From: Gemmatimonadota bacterium
GTDB lineage: Bacteria; Latescibacterota; UBA2968; UBA8231
Direction: 5' to 3'
DNA length: 38,411 nucleotides
Assembly: GCA_002712305.1 (NCBI GenBank)
Contig: PATE01000030.1
Location: forward strand, 1 to 38,411
In this document: in pieces, positions 2,530-20,331 of the stretch
Position numbering within the stretch: the stretch's first letter is position 1
How the letters are laid out: every line of letters begins with the position of its first letter
Position numbers and translations under genes: made by a program
The notes under the pieces: generated by a model
The model's database searches: none
The model's input: only the letters and a program-made list of their open reading frames with translations
Told to the model about the DNA's origin: nothing

Positions 2530-2638
2530 TTGCCACGACTCGGTTGCGTGGCCGCCGCTGCCGACCCTTCTTCACACGGCCTTGACCGCCTCCGGGTCGC
2601 CTGGTAAGAGCGGCCTGAACAATCGGAGATCTATCACT

Positions 2639-4402
2639 ATGCCTCGTCGTCCACCCCTGCTTTACATCGACACCGCCGTGCCACCCCCTCGCTGGGCACT
2701 ACTGCAGCGCCATTTGTTGGACATGCAAACCCAGGCGTGCCGAGCCTTTTTCGACAAGTATTTCGATCCATACTCCGGTCACTTGCTGTGTGTACCTCGA
2801 TGGGGTGGAGACGATGGACCCGATGACGCGGCCGAGAATCAGCTCAATTGGACGCTCCTGCACGCACTGGGTGCCTCCGATGACATCCTCGATCTGTTTC
2901 GGGTGGGATTCGAGGGTCATATCGACCAGTACACCAAGGCGCGCACCGTGGAAGTGCCCCTGGCGCGCGGCGGCATGTATTACAAAGAGTTTCCTGTCAG
3001 CCTCGACTGGTTCCATCACGGCGAGGGATACTCGGCGTACTTCCTCTACGGGCTGTCCGACCCCTACGATGCCAACTATGAGCGCCGCTTCCGGCGCTGG
3101 GCGGCCATGTACGATGGCACCGACGCATCCACGCCCAACTACGATCCGAATCATCGGCTGATCCGTTCGATGTTCAATGGCAGTCGTGGACCGCTGTTGC
3201 GCAAAGCGACCGGTTTAGACTGGGCCGGTGACCCCATCGAGATCGAGGGTCGTTTCGGTCCTGGGCACGGAGAGCGCAACTTCGCGGAGATGCTCGCCCA
3301 TTTTGAGGACTACACCGACGTCGTCGGCGACTGTCCACTGAATCTGGAGGCGACCCATCTTGGGTTGGTGGCCTACATGATCACCGGCGAAGACCGCTAC
3401 CGCGACTGGGTCGTCGAGTATGTCGATGCCTGGATGCAGCGCACCGACGACAATGGAGGGATTATCCCGTCCAACATCGGTTTGGATGGAACGATCGGTG
3501 GCGCCGTGGGTGGGCGTTGGTGGGGTGGATGTTATGGGTGGGGATTCACCGTCACCGTGCCGCAAACCGGTGCTTTGGCAAACCGACCTGCCTGTTATTC
3601 GCGGGCTCATTGGGGGTTTGGCCATGGATTGTTGTTGACCGGACAGCAGTCCTACATCGATACATGGCGTGGCGTGTTGGACAAGGTGAACGAACACGCG
3701 AAGGAGCAGGATGGCGAGACGGTGTATCCCAGTATGCATGGCGACGATGGCTGGTACGGGTTCCGTCCCCAACCGTTCTCACCGGGGGCCAGTGAGGTCT
3801 GGTACTGGTCACAACGCGAGTCCGATCGTGAACGAATCGCCCATGATCCCTGGGTTCAATTCCTAGGGGGTGAGAATCCGGACTATGCGGAAACGGAGCT
3901 GGAACGAGGGCTTGAACAGGTGCGTTCGAGGATGCAGCGAATGGCAGAGGATGACACCGCCCCGGATACACGCCTGTCTGACGACATGAACGGGATCAAT
4001 CCCGCCATCACCGAACCTCTGGTGCGTACCATGTTGGGTGGTGTGCCCGTGGGTCGGTCTGCTCACACGCTCCACTGCCGACTGCGCTACTTCGATGTGG
4101 ATGCACGTCGAGCCGGTGTGCCGCTTGGGGTAGCGGCCCTGGTGGAACAGATGAGCGACGACTCGGTCACGGTTCAACTAGTCAACACCGATCCAGTACA
4201 TGTGCGGCGCTTAGTCGTGCAGGGGGGTGCCTACGGCGAGCACGAGTTGCTGCGCGTGACAGCCGACGAACAGACGGTCGATGTGCCGGGGGATGGAACC
4301 CACTTCACCGTCGAGCTGGCGCCGGGGGCCGGACAGAGGTTGCAGATCGCACAGAAGAGATTTGTGCGGCAGCCCTCCTTCGCCTTCCCGTGGGATCGCT
4401 AA
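2639..4402 (+). CDS. Large unrecognised protein, possibly an (alpha/alpha)-toroid carbohydrate-active protein
   Basis: This is a 587-residue protein without a signal peptide. The ATG at 2639 is preferred because GGAG lies 8-9 bases upstream; a TTG at 2582 would add 19 unremarkable residues. I do not recognise a named family. Residues about 30-420 are helical and rich in aromatic and acidic residues, with conspicuous motifs HGEGYSAYFLYGLSDP, GGRWWGGCYGWGF (about 291-303) and RAHWGFGHGLLLTGQ, reminiscent of toroid glycosidases or polysaccharide lyases. Residues about 480-575 look like a beta-sandwich appendage (VTVQLVNTDPVHVRRLVVQ and following). Its stop overlaps the start of the sulfatase by 13 bases, so the two are almost certainly co-translated, which hints at action on a sulfated glycan. 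That function is inference only. Confidence 0.6.
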   Translation: MPRRPPLLYIDTAVPPPRWALLQRHLLDMQTQACRAFFDKYFDPYSGHLLCVPRWGGDDGPDDAAENQLNWTLLHALGASDDILDLFRVGFEGHIDQYTKARTVEVPLARGGMYYKEFPVSLDWFHHGEGYSAYFLYGLSDPYDANYERRFRRWAAMYDGTDASTPNYDPNHRLIRSMFNGSRGPLLRKATGLDWAGDPIEIEGRFGPGHGERNFAEMLAHFEDYTDVVGDCPLNLEATHLGLVAYMITGEDRYRDWVVEYVDAWMQRTDDNGGIIPSNIGLDGTIGGAVGGRWWGGCYGWGFTVTVPQTGALANRPACYSRAHWGFGHGLLLTGQQSYIDTWRGVLDKVNEHAKEQDGETVYPSMHGDDGWYGFRPQPFSPGASEVWYWSQRESDRERIAHDPWVQFLGGENPDYAETELERGLEQVRSRMQRMAEDDTAPDTRLSDDMNGINPAITEPLVRTMLGGVPVGRSAHTLHCRLRYFDVDARRAGVPLGVAALVEQMSDDSVTVQLVNTDPVHVRRLVVQGGAYGEHELLRVTADEQTVDVPGDGTHFTVELAPGAGQRLQIAQKRFVRQPSFAFPWDR

Positions 4403-5920: not shown

Positions 5921-6766
5921 TCACGCGGGCAACATCCAGGCCGAAACTCCAAGCAGCAAGGGAATCCCGTCGACGCAGATCGCGTATCGAAACCGAGGCC
6001 CGTTGGGGTTCAGGTGCCCGACACAAAACGCCGTGCTTGACAGAGCGATGACGATCGCTGTCTCCGCATGAGTGCCGATAAACACGTCGCCAGCCAGGGC
6101 TAACCCGACACACGAAGCCAGACACAGACCGGCCACGCCCCAGCGTGTGAGGGTGGGGCCGAACAGAACGGGGAGGGTCACGATCTGGCGAGCTCGATCG
6201 GCACGCTCATCGCGCAGATCGAAAAGGGTGACGTTGGACAGGAGCAGGATCCCTAGCAGAAGACTCAGCCGGCACAGCTGAGACAGAGTCACCTCCCCAC
6301 TCGACCAGAGTACCGTGACCCCGATCGTGGCAACCGTCAGCGCACCGGTCACGAAGAAAGGCTTCACGCCAGGCACTTGACGTAGACAGATGTCACCGCC
6401 ACCCCGGCGCGAACCGTAGAGGACACACGGAATCGCGCCCAATCCCACGAGCCAACGCACCGCTTGTGGCGCCTGACCCCAACTCCAGATCAGGACGGCC
6501 AGAGCCATCACCACCGGCACAACCCCTCGGGATGGACGATCGGCGTCGACCCAGCCATCGAAGCGATAGATCAGGAGCGTCGAGGCCGCCACAAGCGCGA
6601 CCGGTGCTCCTCGGATGGGCAGACCCAAGGCGTGTTGGCTGAACAGGACCAGTCCCGCGGCGCCGCCGGCGACCCACAAATGCGTGTCGACGAGGAATCG
6701 CTCGATGATAACCGTCATCCACTGCCTAGTGATTCGCTGAACAGTGATCTGTTGTGGCGTGGTCAC
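5921..6766 (-). CDS. UbiA-like prenyltransferase-family membrane protein
   Basis: This is a 281-residue integral membrane protein with about eight hydrophobic segments. Two acidic loop motifs are placed as in UbiA prenyltransferases: YRFDGWVDADR near residue 70, in the position of NDxxDxxxD, and FDLRDERADR near residue 195, matching the second D-rich DxxxD loop. The first motif is degenerate (no Asn-Asp), so catalytic prenyl transfer is not certain. It starts at a GTG (6764-6766) that overlaps the stop of the methyltransferase upstream by 4 bases (GTGA), a translational-coupling arrangement; an ATG at 6718 is an alternative. Pairing of a UbiA homologue with a methyltransferase recalls quinone or isoprenoid tailoring, but the substrate cannot be deduced. 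It converges with the sulfatase gene, 52 bases apart. Confidence 0.7.
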   Translation of the reverse strand: MTTPQQITVQRITRQWMTVIIERFLVDTHLWVAGGAAGLVLFSQHALGLPIRGAPVALVAASTLLIYRFDGWVDADRPSRGVVPVVMALAVLIWSWGQAPQAVRWLVGLGAIPCVLYGSRRGGGDICLRQVPGVKPFFVTGALTVATIGVTVLWSSGEVTLSQLCRLSLLLGILLLSNVTLFDLRDERADRARQIVTLPVLFGPTLTRWGVAGLCLASCVGLALAGDVFIGTHAETAIVIALSSTAFCVGHLNPNGPRFRYAICVDGIPLLLGVSAWMLPA

Positions 6767-7497
6767 CGTTCAAACACCCAACTGCCAAACCATGGCGGTC
6801 CGAGTCGGCCCCATCGAAAGAAGCGGTGCGCCGTGAGCCGGAATCCATGAGTCTGAGCGGCGGCAGCGACATCGTGAATCTCATGCAGAGCACTATCGGT
6901 CCAACGCGAGAACAGATGCATGGGCAGATCGTGGTAGAGCATCTGCAGAAACTGGTGTCCCATGGCGAAGTCACCGACAATCAACAGCCCCTTGGGACGC
7001 AACAACCCTTGCATCCTCTCCATCATGGCGAGCATGGTGGTCATGTCGAAGACATTGAGAAAGAAGTGAGCCACCACGGCATCGTAGGTTCGTCCAGGCT
7101 CGAAGAATCGAAGGTCGGTCTCGTACATGGTCGCCTGATGCTCGAGGCCACACCTCTGGAGTCGTTTTCTTGCGCGGCTGAGCATGGCCGCCGAACGATC
7201 TACGATGTCACAGTGCACACCACCACGCACCGGATCCACAACCTCTGTCGCCGAGCCGGCCCCGGCGAACAGCACCGACGAACCCGGTTGAAGATGAGCG
7301 ACCCCCCATCGCTTGCAGGCGCCGATCGCTCCGGCGGAGTACGCCCAGGCAAGAGAGTCGTACACCGTGGCCAACAGGGGGCCGTAGTCGTCTCGAGTGT
7401 CGGAACTCATGCCAGCGGTGATCGGGCCCATGGGGCGAAGATCGTCTGCACTGCCTTCGGCGGCCAGGCTGGCTACCCCGTCGATGGGGTGTATCAT
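6763..7497 (-). CDS. SAM-dependent class I methyltransferase
   Basis: This is a 244-residue cytoplasmic protein with a Rossmann methyltransferase core. The glycine-rich SAM loop is SSVLFAGAGSATEVV, followed by an acidic strand end (CDIVDRSAAMLSRARKRL), a TYDAVVAHFFLNVF motif IV-like strand, and LRPKGLLIVGDF, the usual post-core strand. These features resemble small quinone- or phospholipid-modifying methyltransferases. I chose the ATG at 7497 because CAGG lies a few bases upstream; an in-frame TTG at 7512 and ATGs at 7431 and 7410 are also possible. It is the first gene of a two-gene unit with the UbiA-like protein (4-base overlap). It diverges from the PhyH gene, with only 46 bases between starts. 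Confidence 0.8.
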   Translation of the reverse strand: MIHPIDGVASLAAEGSADDLRPMGPITAGMSSDTRDDYGPLLATVYDSLAWAYSAGAIGACKRWGVAHLQPGSSVLFAGAGSATEVVDPVRGGVHCDIVDRSAAMLSRARKRLQRCGLEHQATMYETDLRFFEPGRTYDAVVAHFFLNVFDMTTMLAMMERMQGLLRPKGLLIVGDFAMGHQFLQMLYHDLPMHLFSRWTDSALHEIHDVAAAAQTHGFRLTAHRFFRWGRLGPPWFGSWVFER

Positions 7498-7543
7498 TGA
7501 ACCTGATCGCAACGACGCAGTCTACGACGAAGAGGATCATCCG

Positions 7544-8329
7544 ATGGCCTACGCCGCAACCGACGCTCAGGTGAAACAGTTCCAAGAAGACGGGTTTCTT
7601 CTGATACCAGATCTATACAACACAGAGGAAATGCTGCTGCTGCTTCAGGTGGCCAAGTCGGATATGGGGAGGACGGAGAATGTTAGAGGCCCCGTCGATG
7701 CAGAGGGTCGTCTCAGCAAGTTGTGGCTCACTTCGGATACCGACCGTGATGACATCTACAACGCCATTTGCCATGGTCGCCGACTGGTCGATGCCATGGA
7801 GCGACTGATGGAGGATGAAGTTTACCTGTATCACTACAAGATGATGGTGAAGGAGCCTCGCGTCGGTGGCGCCTGGGAATGGCATCAGGACTATGGATAC
7901 TGGTACAACAACGGATGCCTCTATCCAGACATGGCCAGTTGCATGATCGCCGTCGATCGCGCCTACGAAGGCAACGGATGCCTGCAGGTACTGCGGGGCT
8001 CGCACAAACTCGGTCGGATCGAACACGGAAAGACGGGTACCCAGACCGGCGCTGATCCCGAACGGGTCGAGCTGGCGCAGCAACACCTGGAGCATGTGTA
8101 TTGCGAGATGGAGCCGGGGAGTGCGCTGTTTTTCCATGCCAATCTGCTGCACGCCTCAGCGCCCAACGATTCTCCCGATCCACGTTGGGCTCTGATCTGC
8201 TGCTATAACACTCGACACAACCCTTGTGAGGATCGTGGGGGGCATCCCAGTTATCGTCCCTTGGCGAAATGGGACGACGACCGCGTACTCGAATTGGGCG
8301 AACAGCAGCGCCTGCAACAGGGTGACTGA
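7544..8329 (+). CDS. Phytanoyl-CoA dioxygenase (PhyH) family Fe(II)/2-oxoglutarate oxygenase
   Basis: This 261-residue protein matches the PhyH fold. The iron ligands are visible as HQD (His114, Asp116, context WEWHQDYGYWYNNG) and a distal His203 (LLHASAPNDS). A downstream arginine in PRWALICCYN is placed to bind 2-oxoglutarate. The N-terminal FQEDGFLLIPDL block is also typical. The family hydroxylates small organic molecules at the expense of O2 and 2-oxoglutarate; the substrate here is unknown. The ATG at 7544 is supported by AGAGGAT about 6 bases upstream, although the frame is open further. It lies divergently from the methyltransferase and 74 bases before a small secreted protein. A second PhyH gene of the same predicted length lies at 11836-12621. 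Confidence 0.9.
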   Translation: MAYAATDAQVKQFQEDGFLLIPDLYNTEEMLLLLQVAKSDMGRTENVRGPVDAEGRLSKLWLTSDTDRDDIYNAICHGRRLVDAMERLMEDEVYLYHYKMMVKEPRVGGAWEWHQDYGYWYNNGCLYPDMASCMIAVDRAYEGNGCLQVLRGSHKLGRIEHGKTGTQTGADPERVELAQQHLEHVYCEMEPGSALFFHANLLHASAPNDSPDPRWALICCYNTRHNPCEDRGGHPSYRPLAKWDDDRVLELGEQQRLQQGD

Positions 8330-8905: not shown

Positions 8906-9298
8906 TCACGAGCGGAAAGGATCTAGGGGGCCGTCGCGTTCGGCGTCGTGCTGCAGGATCATCCGATCGTCTTGCCAGCCTCCGGTGAAGTCCAGATAGC
9001 CGCCTTGATTGTCGACCCACGTCTGTTTCCACTGCTGGGCGCGTACGTCGAAGGTCGAAACACTCATCCCTACCAGTGGCGTGCCCGGTCGCCCGTCGAA
9101 GCGCTCGACGATGACCCAGGGTCTCAGATCTGAACTCACCGTGTTGGTGCCCTGGCCCCCCCACGAGACCTGCCAGTGACCCACCCAGAAATCGAATTGG
9201 CGGGCCTCAGGTGACTGGCAGGGGGGCGGGACCTCTTGCTAGGCAGTCAGCGCACCCGTCATCATCCATCCCAGTACGACAACCCATCGCATGTACAT
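8906..9298 (-). pseudogene. DUF1579-like secreted protein, interrupted by a TAG and cut short
   Basis: An ATG at 9298 with GGAGG about 9 bases upstream opens a clear signal peptide (MRWVVVLGWMMTGALTA), but codon 20 is TAG (9239-9241), exactly at the expected cleavage site. The same frame continues after it without a break as QEVPPP, then FDFWVGHWQVSW, VIVERFDG, GMSVSTFD, WKQTWVDNQGGYLDF and MILQHD. Those blocks read in order like the DUF1579 family (FDFW-G-W start, WVDN-GGY core). The frame then stops at 8906 after DPFRS, where family members normally continue with an RM/W-rich C-terminal half. It therefore appears both interrupted and truncated. The alternatives are a sequencing error at the TAG or use of an internal GTG (9184). 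It faces the Spy-like gene tail to tail. Confidence 0.7.
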
Positions 9299-9326: not shown

Positions 9327-9692
9327 TCAGCCACCAACTCGTTTTACCTGATAGCCGCGATCTTCGAGTTCCTTGACGAGCGTATCACGATGCTCCCCCT
9401 GGATTTCGACGATTCCGTCTTTCACAGTACCGCCGGCGCCACAGCGAGCTTTCAGCTGTTTGGCCAACGCCTGCAACTGTTCCCCTCCCAGGGGCACGCC
9501 GGTGATCACCGTGACCCCCTTTCCCTTTCGGCCTTTGGTCTCTCGGGCGACACGGACGACGCCGTCGCCTTTTGCGGTCTCGTTGCGGTGGCCTCGACAG
9601 TCACCGATGGGTTTTCCGCAGGTGGGACAGGTTCGGCCTGTATCCGAGGAGTAAACCAGACTGCTGTTGCTGTTTCTTTTCCGCTGCATCAT
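9327..9692 (-). CDS. yciH: SUI1/YciH-type translation initiation factor homologue
   Basis: This 121-residue protein has an N-terminal zinc-ribbon-like stretch ([11 protein letters not shown]: Cys22, Cys25, Cys32) preceded by VYSSDTGR, as is usual for bacterial YciH. The SUI1/eIF1 fold follows: [51 protein letters not shown], ending [13 protein letters not shown]. Bacterial SUI1 proteins bind the small ribosomal subunit and influence initiation fidelity. Two consecutive ATGs (9692, 9689) are possible. The first overlaps the stop of the upstream enolase homologue (ATGA), so this housekeeping-like gene is the last cistron of a catabolic-looking operon. The N-terminus is rich in Lys, Arg, Asn and Ser. 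Confidence 0.93.
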
Positions 9693-10969
9693 TCGGTTCC
9701 GTTCGAAGGCCTATCGCTTACCGGCGCATACTGGACACGCTGGTAGAGATCGGCAAAATCTTTGCTGTCATCGTCTTCCCTCGTCACCACGTGCACACCC
9801 GATGACCAACCGGGCCCGTGATGGACAGAAGCTGCACCTAGCTGCGCCACGTGTACGCTGTCGCCATCAGGATAGTGGATCGTGTTGATCAACCGCGGCG
9901 GCGGATGAGCATACAGCTGCCCGGCTTGTACCGACGCGAGGGCATCGGCGCTCACTCGATACCGTTCCACCGCTGCGATATCAACCTCCACGCCAAGACC
10001 AGGTTTGTCTGGCACGGATTGATACCCGCCCTGCACGGCAATTGGTTGTGTGAGCAGATGGTGGCTGTAGAGGTTGATACAACTGATCGTCGGCCACGTC
10101 GCATGAGAGAGCACGGCGCCCAGATGGGCTGCCCAGGTCGTAGTCAGCCCATTGCCGACCAGCTGCAGCCAGAAAGGCATGGCCACCTCGGCGGCCAGGA
10201 TCCCTTCTCGGAGCACTCGGCTGGCACCTCCGTTGATGACGAATCCATCGCAGACCTCTTCACGCACTGCCGTCAGGAACGGCGGGCTGCCGAAATGCAT
10301 GGCGATGGGTCGCGCCACACTGCGACGGATCTGCCGATTGCCCAGGATGTCCTTCTGTGGAATCGGCGTTTCGAACATGGCCACCCGGTCAAACTCGGCC
10401 AGTCGTCGAAGGATCGGAATGGCCGTCGCCGCGTTGTCGAGGGTGCCATTGGGATCCATATCGATGCGGAAATGATCGGGCGTCGCCTTGCTGACCGCCT
10501 CGACCTGGGCAAACACGTCCCACCAGGGCCGGGGTTTGGTCTTAAGGCCGGTATATCCCGATTGCACCGCCTCGGTTGATTCAGCCGCCCAGTCTTCTGG
10601 ACCGCTGTGGGAACACCACCACGAGATGGGCGTCGCCTGGCGCACGGCGGTGCCGAGGATTCGATAGACCGGCACCTGTAGGGCTTTGCCCATCACATCG
10701 AACAAGGCCATCTGTAGCCCGGCCCCGATCGAGTCGTCGTAAAGTAGCTGCGCCGCGGGGGCCCCCAGGGCTCTCTCGACGATGGTATCGGTGACTCGTT
10801 GATGTGTGTAGTGGGGAACGGTCTCACCCCAACCGACGTGACCGGTATCGGTGGTGACCCTACACAGCTCCAGTAGCGACCAGTTGTACACCGTACGACG
10901 CGTGATCCGCTGTTGGCGTTCGGTGAAAGGCACATCGAGGAGGATGCGCTCGATGTCGACGATCTTCAT
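9689..10969 (-). CDS. Enolase-superfamily homologue with a substituted metal ligand and long C-terminus
   Basis: This is a 426-residue member of the mandelate racemase/muconate lactonizing group. Start to end it shows the capping domain ([25 protein letters not shown]), then barrel signatures: KTK (Lys143, Lys145), MDPNG (Asp172) and MFETP (Glu200). At the position of the third metal ligand, where most members have Glu or Asp after PIA-G, this protein reads [11 protein letters not shown], placing His225 there. The C-terminal about 70 residues (after the usual GLGVEVD ending) are an extra tail with [19 protein letters not shown] and [13 protein letters not shown]. The start is ATG 10969 with AAGGG about 10 bases upstream. 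It sits 13 bases after the amidohydrolase and overlaps SUI1 by 4 bases. Activity may be altered or lost. Confidence 0.82.
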
Positions 10970-10982
10970 GATGCGAAACCCT

Positions 10983-11813
10983 TCACGGGCCCGTCCGTTC
11001 GAAGTACAAACGATTGGCCGTCTCGCCAAGGATGAGGGCGCGGTCCTGGTCGGTGAAGAAGGGGATCATGTCTCTCATGATCAGGTATTCATAGAAATTC
11101 GCCCACAACAGACGATGAGGACCAAAGCCGTCGTACAGACGCTTCAGATACGGCCACACGTCGTTGAAGGGGAGGGGTTGCTTGGACGGATTGTGCAAGG
11201 ACGTGCGGGAGTAAACGTTGGGCAGTCGCTGCAGCCGAAGCAGGGGTTCGATGCCCTCCTCATCGGGTCGGGTGATGTCGATCATGGCCATGTGGTCGAC
11301 GACGACGGCAACGCCTGGATGACGTTCGGCCATTCGTTCGAGTTGAGGAATCTGCTCGGCAGCGAGGAAGATGTTGAACACACACTTCAGTTCGGCCGCC
11401 TTGCTCCACAACGCATCACAGTCGGGATCATCGAGCCATTGCACATCACGATCATAGATGGGGCTCAAGCGCAGACCGGCGAGACCGTCTTCGGTTGCGA
11501 GTTTTTCCAATCGCTCTGCGTTTTGCTCGCCATCGTGTGGAGAAAACAGCCTGTAGCCCACCAGCAATCCCACTCCGGCGAATCGATCGGGCCAGGTCTG
11601 CACACAGTGGGAGGTGTAATCGTTGTTGCGTCCGTAGTAACACACGTGGCTGATCACGGTGCGATCCACCCCATGGTCCTGCATGCTGGCCAGCAGATCG
11701 TGACCTGATTGCTCGCGTTCTGGAAAATGGTTGGGACAGACCGCCACCTCCTTGTCGAGTGGAAACCGGTCATCCCCAAGAACCCAGGCGTGCTCCGCTG
11801 CGTTGACGATCAT
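10983..11813 (-). CDS. Amidohydrolase-2 family homologue with missing metal-site residues
   Basis: This 276-residue protein has the TIM-barrel layout of the COG3618/LigI-type lactonases: LLASMQDHGVDRTVISH, WPDRFAGVGLLV, LAGLRLSPIYD, HPGVAVVVDHMAM and a final RLLWANFYEY. Compared with the family, the opening HxH is altered: IVNAAEHAW appears where IVDAHxHxW is expected, so the first His is Ala6. The late catalytic Asp of the LLWGTDxP motif is absent in LLWANFYEY. The central His in VVDHM is kept. It may therefore be a non-hydrolytic or mechanistically different relative. The ATG at 11813 has AGGGG 6 bases upstream. It lies between the PhyH gene (22 bases) and the aberrant enolase homologue (13 bases) in the same operon. 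Confidence 0.78.
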   Translation of the reverse strand: MIVNAAEHAWVLGDDRFPLDKEVAVCPNHFPEREQSGHDLLASMQDHGVDRTVISHVCYYGRNNDYTSHCVQTWPDRFAGVGLLVGYRLFSPHDGEQNAERLEKLATEDGLAGLRLSPIYDRDVQWLDDPDCDALWSKAAELKCVFNIFLAAEQIPQLERMAERHPGVAVVVDHMAMIDITRPDEEGIEPLLRLQRLPNVYSRTSLHNPSKQPLPFNDVWPYLKRLYDGFGPHRLLWANFYEYLIMRDMIPFFTDQDRALILGETANRLYFERTGP

Positions 11814-11835
11814 ATTGACCCCTACCAGTTGACCC

Positions 11836-12621
11836 TTACCAGTCTGTCAGACGCGGCATGAGCTGTCGCCCGCCGCGAGCCAGAGGCATGCCCGCCAGTG
11901 CGCAACGGTTGTTCCACTTGTCGATGGCTCCTGCTGACTTGTATTCGTTGATGATGGCATTGCGGCTGCGCTCGGTGAAGTTGTGCCCGGCTCGATGAAC
12001 CGCGAGCACATGGATGACCACGACGTCGCCAGCGTCTGCTTTGCAGACCACCGCTTTCGACTCGTCCACATCCTGCTGAATCAAGGTGGACTTGTCCTCC
12101 TCGGTTGGAAGGGCCGCCAGGTGGCTCTGCGGAATAACTTCGGTCGCCCCCGCCTCAAAGTCGGTGGGATCGAGATACGTGATCGCTGCGGCGAGTTCAG
12201 GTTTGGAGTGCAATTCGTAGGGCCAGTCCTGGTGCCACCCTTGCGTCGACTCGAATCCCGGTGGCTTGTTGCGCACCTTCCCATTGTGGAAGTCGAGGTC
12301 CTGTCCCAGACAATCGACCATGGCTCCCACCAGGCGCGGTTCCGTGAAATGATCAATCCAGAAGTCGCTGGCCATGACCTGGTCCATCATGCCCACCACG
12401 TTCTTCGGGTTGTAGTCGTCAGGTGGATACCCTTCGGCGGGATCCATGTAACTGTACGAGAGGTTCGCCGGACGCTCGTCCGTATGCGTCACAAGCTGGT
12501 GATACTCGTCCCGGAGGCGTTGCAGTTGTTGGCCGGAATAGAACCCCGGAAGGTGCAGAAATCCATGATCGTCGAAGAAACTCTTCTGTTCTCGGCTCAA
12601 TGTCAGCAAGCCGTCATTCAT
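11836..12621 (-). CDS. Phytanoyl-CoA dioxygenase (PhyH) family oxygenase
   Basis: This is a 261-residue Fe(II)/2-oxoglutarate-dependent oxygenase. The N-terminal FFDDHGFLHLPGFYSG, the iron motif HQD (His130, Asp132 in GWHQDWPYELHS), and a distal His209 (VHRAGHNFTERSRNAIINEY, which also carries the 2-oxoglutarate Arg) are all present, so it should be active. The ATG at 12621 gives the family-typical N-terminus; the open frame upstream to 12741 overlaps the preceding enolase gene and is not supported. It lies 16 bases after the canonical enolase-superfamily gene. Within the operon it is the only oxygenase, suggesting hydroxylation of the acid or sugar substrate handled by its neighbours. That pathway role is inferred. 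Confidence 0.91.
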   Translation of the reverse strand: MNDGLLTLSREQKSFFDDHGFLHLPGFYSGQQLQRLRDEYHQLVTHTDERPANLSYSYMDPAEGYPPDDYNPKNVVGMMDQVMASDFWIDHFTEPRLVGAMVDCLGQDLDFHNGKVRNKPPGFESTQGWHQDWPYELHSKPELAAAITYLDPTDFEAGATEVIPQSHLAALPTEEDKSTLIQQDVDESKAVVCKADAGDVVVIHVLAVHRAGHNFTERSRNAIINEYKSAGAIDKWNNRCALAGMPLARGGRQLMPRLTDW

Positions 12622-12637
12622 CGTTGGTCTTCTTTCG

Positions 12638-13738
12638 TCATTGAACGGCGTAACGTTCCAGGACCTGGCGATTGATCTCGATTCCCAGACCCGGGGCGCC
12701 GGGGACCGGCACGTATCCGTCCACTGTTTTGATGGGCTCACACGCCAGCTGCGTGCGCAGACCGTTCTCGGTCATGTCGAATTCGAACAGGCTGGGTTGC
12801 GGGCTGATACCCTCCGGTTCGTCAGGGATCGTCGCGTGCCATTGCACGGTCGCCGCCAACCGAATCGCCGTCCCCCACATGTGCGGCAACACGCGAAGCC
12901 CGTGCGCCTGGGCCAGGGCCTCGATGCGCTGACACTCGGTGAAACCACCGGCGATGGAGAGGTTGGGCTGCACAATGTCGAACGCCCGTTGGCTGATCAT
13001 GTCACGAAACGCCGTGAGGCCTTGGAGCTGCTCGCCACCCGCGATGGGCAACGAAGAGAGCGCCTGCCGCACCTCAATGTTGCCTGCCACGTCGTTGGCA
13101 CCCACGGGCTCCTCGAACCAGTAGAGATCGTGTTCGGCAAGGCGGCGACCCACGGCGATGGCCGTGCCCACATCGTAGCCACAGTTGGCATCGACGGCGA
13201 ACAGGATGTCCTTGCCAATCGCTTGACGGATGGCCCCCACGTTGGTGGTGTCGTAGCCGATTCCCTGGCCCACCTTCATCTTGATCGCGCCGAACCCGGC
13301 ATCGGCATACCCCTGTGCTTCATCCACTAAGGCCGCCGTGTTGTCGGCGCGTTCACGCCGAAACAGACCCGATGCATAAGCGGGGATCCGATGTCTGGAG
13401 GCCCCACCGAGCAGCTGGTAGATCGGCAGTTCAAGGGCCTTGCCACGCAGATCCCACAGGGCGATATCGACGGCACTGATGGCGGCGATATTCCCCCAGC
13501 CATGCTCGGCCAGGTCCAGCCAGATTCGACGACTGTCGAAGGGGTCGCGCCCCAGCAAGTGGGTTTTTGTCGCCTCCTGGGGCAATCTCGCCATACCTTC
13601 ACCCCAGCCGATGTGCCCACTGTCGGTGTGAATCTCCACGACATGGGCCGTCCGGTGATGGACCCAGGTACGCGAATTGGCGAAGGCTTCCTGAAGGGGA
13701 TAGCTGAGATGGTAGCAACGAACGTCAGTGATCTTCAT
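12638..13738 (-). CDS. Mandelate racemase/muconate lactonizing enzyme family dehydratase or racemase
   Basis: This 366-residue enolase-superfamily enzyme has an intact active site. The KxK base is KMK (Lys153, Lys155). The metal ligands are Asp183 (FAVDANCGY), Glu209/210 (WFEEPVG) and Glu236 (AGGEQLQG). A barrel-end histidine is His286 (LPHMWGT). Such enzymes abstract an alpha proton from a carboxylate and are often acid-sugar dehydratases or racemases. The specific substrate cannot be read. Two ATGs are close together (13744, 13738); AGGA sits 7 bases from the second and only 1 base from the first, so 13738 is chosen. It is the first gene of the five-gene minus-strand operon. It diverges from the ABC permease pair across about 125 bases that should hold both promoters. 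Confidence 0.92.
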   Translation of the reverse strand: MKITDVRCYHLSYPLQEAFANSRTWVHHRTAHVVEIHTDSGHIGWGEGMARLPQEATKTHLLGRDPFDSRRIWLDLAEHGWGNIAAISAVDIALWDLRGKALELPIYQLLGGASRHRIPAYASGLFRRERADNTAALVDEAQGYADAGFGAIKMKVGQGIGYDTTNVGAIRQAIGKDILFAVDANCGYDVGTAIAVGRRLAEHDLYWFEEPVGANDVAGNIEVRQALSSLPIAGGEQLQGLTAFRDMISQRAFDIVQPNLSIAGGFTECQRIEALAQAHGLRVLPHMWGTAIRLAATVQWHATIPDEPEGISPQPSLFEFDMTENGLRTQLACEPIKTVDGYVPVPGAPGLGIEINRQVLERYAVQ

Positions 13739-13863
13739 CGACATATCCTGAGGGCGCTGGAGAAACTCGCGAGGAAAGTAAGCGATCCCGGCACCGAGTG
13801 CGTCGAATGTCTACCTCGGGCTTCTAACGCATGGGATGAGGATCGCCATGAGGGGATACGACC

Positions 13864-17826: not shown

Positions 17827-18369
17827 TTATTCGGCTTGCTGAAGATGGTGGGCGAATTGCTGACGAAACTTCGCCACCTTCGGTCCCACGACCATCATGC
17901 AGTAGGGCTGGCCCGGATTTTTCTGAAAGTAGCTGTGGTGGTAAGCCTCTGCTGGCCAGAAACGAGCAAGGGGCTCGATCTGTGTGACGATCGGGTCAGG
18001 GTAAATGGCCTCCTTCGTGAGCCGTTCCACCATCTGTTGAGATGTGGCCAACTGCTGATCGTCCTCAGCGAAAATGGCGGACCTATAGTGGGGTCCCACG
18101 TCATTGCCCTGCCGGTCGACGGTGGTCGGGTCGTGGATGCCGAAGAAAATCTCCAGGATTTCTTCGAAGGAAATCACCTGTGTGTCAAGGACGAGCTGCA
18201 CCACTTCGGCGTGCCCAGTCGTGCCCGAGCACACCGCTTCGTAGGTGGGTGACTCCACCTGACCGCCGGCATATCCTGAGGTCACACTCTGCACACCATT
18301 CACCTGTTCGTAGGCCGCCTCCAAACACCAGAAACAGCCCCCGCCAAGGGTCGCTTTCTCGAGGGTCAC
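17827..18369 (-). CDS. msrA: Peptide methionine sulfoxide reductase A
   Basis: This 180-residue MsrA repairs the S-epimer of methionine sulfoxide in oxidised proteins. The catalytic motif GCFWC is at residues 11-15 (Cys12). Family blocks follow: GVQSVTSGYAGG, PTYEAVCSGTTGHAEVVQL, FFGIHDPTTVDRQGNDVGPHYRSAIF and AEAYHHSYFQKNP, with Tyr and His in the expected places. Length is normal for a stand-alone MsrA. It begins at a GTG (18367-18369) that overlaps the stop of the upstream propeller gene by 4 bases, so it is probably translated by coupling. Cytoplasmic; no signal peptide. No msrB is nearby. Confidence 0.97.
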   Translation of the reverse strand: MTLEKATLGGGCFWCLEAAYEQVNGVQSVTSGYAGGQVESPTYEAVCSGTTGHAEVVQLVLDTQVISFEEILEIFFGIHDPTTVDRQGNDVGPHYRSAIFAEDDQQLATSQQMVERLTKEAIYPDPIVTQIEPLARFWPAEAYHHSYFQKNPGQPYCMMVVGPKVAKFRQQFAHHLQQAE

Positions 18370-20267
18370 GTCGAAGAACCTTCCATGTCGTAGCTGTAGA
18401 GGTGGGAGCCACTCCCGAAGTAGATCCTGCCCTCGTGCAGATCACCACCACACTGGATCGGTATGGGTGGTTCACTGACCTGTTCCAGGCGATAGTGAGG
18501 GCCCTCGCAGACCCGGGCGATGGCTCGTTCGAACAAGACCAGAACATCGCCGGTCTCGGGGATCGTGATGAAGAGACGGGGGCCTTGGTGGTAGGCCGAT
18601 CTGCCCAAAGTATCACCGGTGGCATGCTCCGCTAGGACGCGGCGCCTCTCGACATCGTAGACGAAGAATCGATCTCGGTCGACGATACCGTAGAGCAACC
18701 CTTCCGGCGAGAGACACAGACATATGTACTCCGACGCCGCGTCAAGAATGGGAGCATGCCACGACATAGTCTTCGTATCGAGATCGATCTCAATGAGCTC
18801 GGCCAGGCCTGCCTTCTTCTCGCCGCCTGTGCCCGGTGCTATCGTCGTACCAGCGAGTACGCGGCGATCGTCCAGGGCGACAAGACTCATGACCGAGTGA
18901 TCGGTGATCAGATCAACGTGCTCCCGGAGCACATGAGTCGACTCCAGCCGGTCCCAGAATAGCAGGCCACCACCGGTCAGTCCGTATCCGGGGGTTCCCG
19001 CCAGGATGAGATCCCTCCCATTTGGGTGAGCCAGCAGAGCATGGGGTCGATTGATGGCCGGAGCACTCTGGGTGAGGTACCGGGGATTTGTGTTGGTTTG
19101 CTCGAGATCGGTGGGCACCCACGGGGCCAGTGGATCCCACTCGAGAAGAAAGCCCCCGGTGTAGCCACCAACGAAGAATCGGTCCCCTTGGGCCGCTACG
19201 GTATTCCACTGCCCATGGGAGGCACGATTGGTCCATTCGTCCTGCTCCGGATCATAGCTGAAGAACCGCATGGGAAAGGCGGTGCCCCCACAGATGGTGC
19301 CACCGGGAGCAGCAGCGACTCCCATCAGGTGCGCCCCATCTGAGGAATAGTCGAATGTGCTCTGCCACCTTTTTCCAGTGGCGGGGTCTTCGACAACGAT
19401 CTCTCGCGCGACCGTGTCACATCGGGTGAGGATGCGACCTGAAGGAAAGGTCGCATGGAAGAGAGATTGGCTCTCGGTGATGATCGGTTTTCGCGCTCGA
19501 TGGGGATGGGTTCCCGCGTCGGTACGCTGGCCCTGATACAACCGAAGCCATTCATCGTCATCCTGCTGTGAGGCATCTGCTACGGCATAGACGGCACCGT
19601 CCATGTCGCGCTCGACCAGGGCAGAGGCCCCCTGGGCTCGCTCTTGCTCCAGTAGGATTGGGGTCGCTTTGGCAGTCTCGGGATCGAAGGCGATGACCTG
19701 AGTCGACGTATTACCGACGGCGAAGTAGATCCACCCGGCCTCATCGGCCGCGATCGTTCGTTGATACTGCGGCCAGTTCTGTAGATACACGTGGCCAAAG
19801 TCGGTGAAATCGCGCGTGGACGGATCGAAACGGACCAGCCCACTGTCCGGATAGCTGATGGACCAGATGCACCCTTCGTCATCTTCCGTCATCCCCATCG
19901 ACATCTTCGGTGCGGTGGCGTGGCAGAAGGTGAAGGATCTCGACGTGGGATCGAACTCCACGAAGTGACTGTTGAAATGTGTGTAGAAGCGATTCTGCGA
20001 GGACAGAACCGAAGCGTATGGACAATCATGGCCCGGATCGAAGGGGATCGGAACTTCGCTGGTCTCGCCCGTGATCGCATCGATCATAAGACAGGCGTGG
20101 CCGCCACGATGATCGAAGAGCCAGATCAGCACCACATCGTGCCCATCTGCGTCGCAAGTTGCCACGGTTCCTCGGTGATTGCTAACCGGCGTCGCCACAC
20201 CGTGGTCCCGGTAGCCGTTGCCTAGCGATCTACTGCCGATGGGATGTTGCTCGTTCTGCGTGGACAT
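18366..20267 (-). CDS. Large beta-propeller-like protein of unknown function
   Basis: This is a 633-residue protein without a signal peptide. It contains many repeats of about 40-50 residues, each a four-strand blade with a ligand-like refrain: GCIWSISYPDSGLVRFDPSTRDF, GWIYFAVGNTSTQVIAFDPETA, GTICGGTAFPMRFFSYDPEQD, RFFVGGYTGGFLLEWDPLA and, near the end, GRIYFGSGSHLYSYD. This resembles SMP-30/Vgb-type or regulator propellers more than WD40. The ATG at 20267 is preferred; an earlier TTG at 20306 is weak. It is followed with a 4-base overlap by msrA. It diverges from the Gfo/Idh/MocA gene, sharing a 140-base intergenic region, and may act on the same carbohydrate pathway. Function is not assigned. 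Confidence 0.68.
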   Translation of the reverse strand: MSTQNEQHPIGSRSLGNGYRDHGVATPVSNHRGTVATCDADGHDVVLIWLFDHRGGHACLMIDAITGETSEVPIPFDPGHDCPYASVLSSQNRFYTHFNSHFVEFDPTSRSFTFCHATAPKMSMGMTEDDEGCIWSISYPDSGLVRFDPSTRDFTDFGHVYLQNWPQYQRTIAADEAGWIYFAVGNTSTQVIAFDPETAKATPILLEQERAQGASALVERDMDGAVYAVADASQQDDDEWLRLYQGQRTDAGTHPHRARKPIITESQSLFHATFPSGRILTRCDTVAREIVVEDPATGKRWQSTFDYSSDGAHLMGVAAAPGGTICGGTAFPMRFFSYDPEQDEWTNRASHGQWNTVAAQGDRFFVGGYTGGFLLEWDPLAPWVPTDLEQTNTNPRYLTQSAPAINRPHALLAHPNGRDLILAGTPGYGLTGGGLLFWDRLESTHVLREHVDLITDHSVMSLVALDDRRVLAGTTIAPGTGGEKKAGLAELIEIDLDTKTMSWHAPILDAASEYICLCLSPEGLLYGIVDRDRFFVYDVERRRVLAEHATGDTLGRSAYHQGPRLFITIPETGDVLVLFERAIARVCEGPHYRLEQVSEPPIPIQCGGDLHEGRIYFGSGSHLYSYDMEGSST

Positions 20268-20331
20268 GGCTGTTTCTGAAGCGAAGAGGAATCGATGGAA
20301 AAACAAAGATAACAGGTTCAGCGCAGGTCGG

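Follow-up and report, generated by a model that had tools for sequence, protein, structure and literature searches.

To our knowledge, a His metal ligand is precedented in the enolase superfamily by one studied enzyme, the galactarate dehydratase GalrD-II of Oceanobacillus iheyensis, for which Mg-bound structures are available (2OQY, 3HPF, 3FYY) and which is reported to use a Tyr-Arg dyad in place of the KxK motif. Rakus et al. 2009 reportedly found GalrD-II to be active as a galactarate dehydratase. In Agrobacterium, the amidohydrolase-fold lactone enzyme GLI (Atu3138) is encoded with a mandelate racemase (MR)-type enolase-superfamily enzyme, the galactarolactone cycloisomerase GCI (Atu3139), and the two act in sequence, GLI before GCI, in an established pathway (PMC6353982). 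A report on SAR202 Chloroflexota describes 80 enolase-superfamily genes in cultivated SAR202, and ties a parallel expansion of COG4948 and COG3618 to acid-sugar type pathways (PMC10444878). Here we compare with these systems a five-gene operon of an uncultured Gemmatimonadota bacterium (GTDB lineage Latescibacterota; UBA2968; UBA8231). It lies in a stretch of 38,411 nucleotides (the window; contig PATE01000030.1 of assembly GCA_002712305.1, contig C51 in our numbering of the 4.77 Mb assembly). Its genes, all on the minus strand and assigned to families by profile, encode in order an MR-type enolase-superfamily enzyme (E1, 12638..13744; MR_MLE_N/C), an Fe(II)/2-oxoglutarate oxygenase family protein (PhyH, 11836..12621), an Amidohydro_2/COG3618-like TIM barrel (AH, 10983..11813), a second MR_MLE_N/C protein (E2, 9689..10969) and a SUI1/YciH translation factor (SUI1, 9327..9692). 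The spacings of 16, 22, 13 and -4 bases, the last being the overlap of SUI1 with E2, agree with those of a first-pass annotation made from the sequence alone, which had regarded AH and E2 as each lacking an essential ligand.

Our results indicate that this is a real and probably recently assembled operon, and that its two oddities differ in kind: the unusual His of E2 is family-wide and has a precedent, while AH has undergone a genuine, conserved loss of its canonical site. We infer, with confidence that stands at about the midpoint, that the operon forms part of a non-phosphorylative acid-sugar and aldonolactone (or aldarolactone) catabolic route in which AH would act without the canonical metal site. 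What looked like a pair of broken enzymes thus becomes two testable statements: that a His metal ligand defines a whole clade, about a third of the enolase paralogues of this bacterium, and that an amidohydrolase branch conserved across 17 genomes does without the standard metal site. Each matters for the way many "mandelate racemase family" genes are annotated and for our picture of how uncultured, enolase-rich bacteria diversified their acid-sugar catabolism.

AH scored 106 bits against Amidohydro_2 (PF04909; cut-off 26.4), and its AlphaFold model (pLDDT 91.6) matched LigI, the fuconolactonase-type COG3618 protein 4dlf and GLI (4mup) at Z 24-27. Orthologues were present in 17 genomes at 58-82% identity, and no match was found in 33 more distant genomes. 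As proposed in the first-pass annotation, normally essential residues are absent. In beta-1, residues 4-8 read NAAEH (11790..11804, minus strand) where DxHxH is expected (NAAEHAW for DxHxHxW), the first His being replaced by Ala or Ser in all 17 orthologues ([ND][AGS][AS]EHAW). In beta-8, residues 238-242 read ANFYE (11088..11102, minus strand) where GxDWP is expected (WANFYE for WGxDWP), the Asp being replaced by Phe, Tyr or Asn, again in all 17 ([AG]N[FYN][YFH]E). The second beta-1 His and His174 are retained, and homologues at ~35% identity keep DxHVHVW. None of the 17 orthologues has reverted to the canonical residues, a check that the first-pass annotation had itself suggested for close relatives. 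Judged by this conservation the canonical metal site is truly lost, and AH is unlikely to act as a hydrolase by the standard mechanism.

GLI, which AH matched at 2.6e-11 by profile and at Z 23.9 with ~19% identity by structure, offers a partial parallel. In the profile alignment with AH its beta-8 reads WGTNWP, with Asn in place of Asp, so the loss of the beta-8 Asp is precedented in a lactone isomerase. AH shares with GLI both the fold and the beta-8 change, but differs in that the first beta-1 His is missing too. The COG3618 lactonases (fuconolactonase-type 4dlf/4do7) and LigI share its fold and architecture (Z 25-27), but not its loss of DxHxH and of the beta-8 Asp, and the AH-type change in beta-1 was absent from all solved relatives whose alignments covered that strand. 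Around the barrel mouth AH has gained new invariant polar positions, E7, H8, H174, N239 and E242, which have the look of an active site that was either kept or built anew. It could nonetheless be that AH is catalytically dead and serves E1 or E2 as a scaffold, as an allosteric partner or as a regulator that binds ligand. Two canonical catalytic positions have been lost in 17 of 17 orthologues, and the drift of beta-8 among Phe, Tyr and Asn is what would be expected in the absence of chemistry. Yet the five invariant residues resemble an active site, and about ten genomes have AH without E2 in its vicinity, its neighbours there being ABC transporters and other genes, which argues against a fixed partner, so we consider a dead AH a possible but on balance unlikely explanation.

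The full gene order was found in two genomes only, that of the window and one congeneric genome (G001:C86, L045), the only other member of the genus in the comparison, which keeps the whole order at ~80% identity with spacings of 10, -4, 16 and 39 bases. Four sister-genus genomes have the genes split between two places, E1-PhyH and E2-X-AH-SUI1, each half being kept at 55-75% identity. In that genus E1-PhyH is divergent from two ABC-2 genes, and the same two genes flank E1 in the window. The protein X, encoded there between E2 and AH as a product of ~625 amino acids (aa), is 625-646 aa long overall, and searches of Pfam, NCBIfam and PDB sequences gave no match for it; its orthologue in the window (646 aa; 18366..20306, minus strand) lies ~4.6 kb upstream of E1. 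A second PhyH-family gene, PhyH2 (7544..8329, plus strand), keeps its place next to the E2/AH/SUI1 unit, adjoining E2-X-AH-SUI1 in the sister genus, where it is 80-88% identical to the copy in the window. Since the sister genus holds the genes in two separate conserved units, the operon is best read as a recent fusion of two older ones.

Beyond these two genera the partners change. In other genera of the class PhyH stands alongside two MFS transporters and an RraA-like aldolase, and elsewhere in the class E1 and AH have other neighbours. The E2 unit adjoins Xyl-isomerase-like and sulfatase genes, and E2 homologues adjoin GFO/IDH and MFS genes. Within the sister genus, three genomes have canonical lactonase-like amidohydrolases beside E1-PhyH (with IDTHQH and GGDWP in one). 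The expectation that the order would recur among relatives therefore held within the genus, at two genomes, and failed outside it, and a widely conserved five-gene module is ruled out. With the full order confined to one genus, the halves kept apart in its sister, a housekeeping gene at the end and families that are very abundant in the genome, the five genes might be a chance co-directional run drawn from hugely expanded families, without joint action. We regard this as doubtful, as both halves are separately conserved in the four sister-genus genomes and the fused order, with its close spacings, is maintained in the second genome. As a separate observation, the product of 18366-20306 and a second long protein (2633-4399; ~589 aa), both without a Pfam or NCBIfam match, recur across the class, and a 586-aa gene, apparently related by its start to the latter, precedes the E2 homologue in two loci labelled Poribacteria (L002, L004).

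E1 (368 aa when read from the first ATG; 366 aa if started, as in the first-pass annotation, at the ATG at 13738) matched PF02746 and PF13378 above cut-off, giving the N-capping and (beta/alpha)7beta barrel domains. The earlier statements that E1 keeps its catalytic residues and PhyH its iron site were both upheld in 12-row orthologue alignments. E1 K155-x-K157, D185, E211, E238 and H288 are invariant, so that the KxK base, the three carboxylate ligands and the His of the second half-site are all present; in PhyH, H130-x-D132, H209 and R220 (numbered from the ATG) are likewise invariant, and orthologues of PhyH occur in 38 of 46 relatives. The closest solved relative of E1 is GCI (4ggb/4hpn; E 1.8e-76), a similarity at the level of a best match. 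Three E1 orthologues from one genus (G026:C48, G029:C83, G032:C64) each carry a single in-frame TAG within the matched range, which may be a premature stop close to the end or may disrupt the gene.

Because E1 is nearest to GCI, AH falls in the fold branch of the GCI partner GLI, lactonase-like genes adjoin E1-PhyH in relatives and SAR202 provides a precedent, acid-sugar or lactone catabolism is the favoured function, which is consistent with the hydroxy-acid or acid-sugar theme suggested earlier; the co-directional arrangement described there has also been borne out. In such a route E1 would use Lys/His-assisted proton abstraction, with Mg2+ held on Asp/Glu/Glu, to turn an acid sugar or its gamma-lactone into a 2-keto-3-deoxy acid. 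AH would take the place of a lactone-handling enzyme, an isomerase or lactonase of the LigI/GLI/COG3618 branch, lacking the canonical metal site. E2 may perform a second alpha-proton abstraction, a dehydration or an epimerisation on another stereoisomer, with a KxK lysine as base and a metal on Asp172/Glu200/His225. PhyH might oxidize or O-demethylate the substrate; relatives of PhyH demethylate 2'-O-methyl nucleosides (PMC12709175). Compared with the Agrobacterium GLI-GCI pair, the operon lacks a uronate dehydrogenase and adds a second enolase and an oxygenase.

Several observations weigh against this pathway. No sugar dehydrogenase, keto-deoxy aldolase, transporter or regulator is encoded within the five-gene operon, and the full order is restricted to the two genomes described above. 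E1 fell far under every cut-off of the NCBIfam equivalogs, and its substrate is accordingly not predicted. LigI and the COG3618 members keep DxHxH, unlike AH, and since the beta-1 motif of AH resembles that of none of the solved relatives compared, AH, if active, would have to rely on a site peculiar to itself. Finally, the window genome contains 74 enolase-superfamily C-domain, 152 PhyH and 33 Amidohydro_2 matches, and an abundance of this order makes neighbours from these families less informative.

Instead of catabolism, the operon might have a biosynthetic or tailoring role, for example on an exported glycan or small molecule. The best solved match of PhyH is EvdO2, an antibiotic-tailoring oxygenase, and there are methyltransferase and sulfatase genes less than 5 kb away from the operon. 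However, the scanned neighbours included no glycosyltransferase or NRPS/PKS genes, and the genes that do accompany these families in other genomes are the MFS transporters, RraA-like aldolase, GFO/IDH oxidoreductases and lactonases already mentioned. We therefore judge tailoring improbable and retain acid-sugar catabolism as the preferred reading. A methyltransferase in the window (6763-7512) has weak similarity to the corrinoid-associated CpaM, and stands beside PhyH2 in the sister genus too (~39% identity).

E2 has the two-domain enolase fold, as seen from its Pfam matches and from a model (pLDDT 93.8) whose structural neighbours belong to the enolase superfamily (Z ~35), and it carries a C-terminal extension of ~80 aa. 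Asp172, Glu200, His225 and K143-x-K145 are invariant among 27 homologues (41-80% identity), and His225 (codon 10295..10297, minus strand) remains invariant in a second, more distant alignment of 10 rows. The third metal-ligand position of E2 is thus His where Asp or Glu is usual, which places it outside the three-acidic-ligand pattern. Of 72 rows in an alignment of the paralogues within this genome, 27 had His in this column, and 25 of the 27 grouped as a single clade (SH-aLRT 97) when the ligand column was left out of the tree. Homologues with the same state also occur in metagenome-assembled genomes labelled Poribacteria, Gemmatimonadetes and Anaerolineae. The residue change flagged in the first-pass annotation is therefore real, but no ligand is missing: His stands in place of Asp or Glu, as is the rule in the 25 paralogues, and rather than calling E2 ligand-deficient it is better to regard it as a putatively intact enzyme whose metal site includes a His.

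A profile of the E2 ligand stretch returned GalrD-II first (2OQY, 3HPF; 8.7e-11), its His246 aligning with His225, and GalrD-II structures were among the best fold matches (Z 34-35), tied with MLE enzymes. E2 differs from GalrD-II in its K143-x-K145 and its C-terminal extension. Among the paralogues of the genome, the GalrD-II fragment was closer to others outside the E2 clade than to the clade itself, so E2 and GalrD-II may have acquired their His by convergence. With its lysines kept and GalrD-II nearer to those other paralogues, E2 is ruled out as a true GalrD-II, and clade-wide conservation disfavours a pseudoenzyme. Although a carboxylate ligand has been replaced and the alignments show no counterpart of MR His297 or of the second MLE Lys, there is only a slim chance that E2 is inactive, given that its three ligand positions and both KxK lysines are invariant down to 41% identity, that the His is kept in 25 paralogues and that Mg-bound GalrD-II, with its reported activity, has the same residue in this column.

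Two further features of the His-bearing paralogues were observed. Part of the clade (for example L158, L159, L163, L164, L166, L168, L171 and L174) has KxH, in which the second lysine of KxK is replaced by His, and this is by its motif a further candidate active-site type. Two paralogues, L145 (G000:C107:5902-6597) and L173 (G000:C78:5851-6471), have the third-ligand His and lie outside the main clade; the L145 motif PLIEHV resembles PISEHV of GalrD-II. Taking both oddities together, one could speculate, as a less likely possibility, that AH uses a metal-free Glu7-His8/His174/Asn239-Glu242 site for a lactone isomerisation or lyase step, beside an E2 from an undescribed lysine-base, His-liganded clade with at least 25 functions in one genome.

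The family expansions resemble those of SAR202, which likewise combines ~70-80 enolase-superfamily paralogues with COG3618 amidohydrolases (PMC10444878). The window genome differs in phylum and in its added expansion of ~150 PhyH matches, and the passages of that paper considered here make no mention of a His-liganded enolase clade like its 25-member one. By comparison, the PhyH family was found in one of 14 control genomes; Poribacteria, too, are reported to carry large numbers of PhyH genes (PMC3909097).

SUI1 matched NCBIfam PRK06824 at 168 bits (cut-off 145). It is the sole SUI1 gene of the window genome, and 31 of 46 relatives have SUI1 as well, in most cases at a distance from the operon genes, a distribution by which it is a housekeeping passenger rather than the module member first supposed; a functional partnership is unsupported by this pattern. 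Just downstream of SUI1 lies a short DUF1579-like frame, apparently truncated or frameshifted (8930-9238), and a similar fragment occupies the same place in the congeneric genome.

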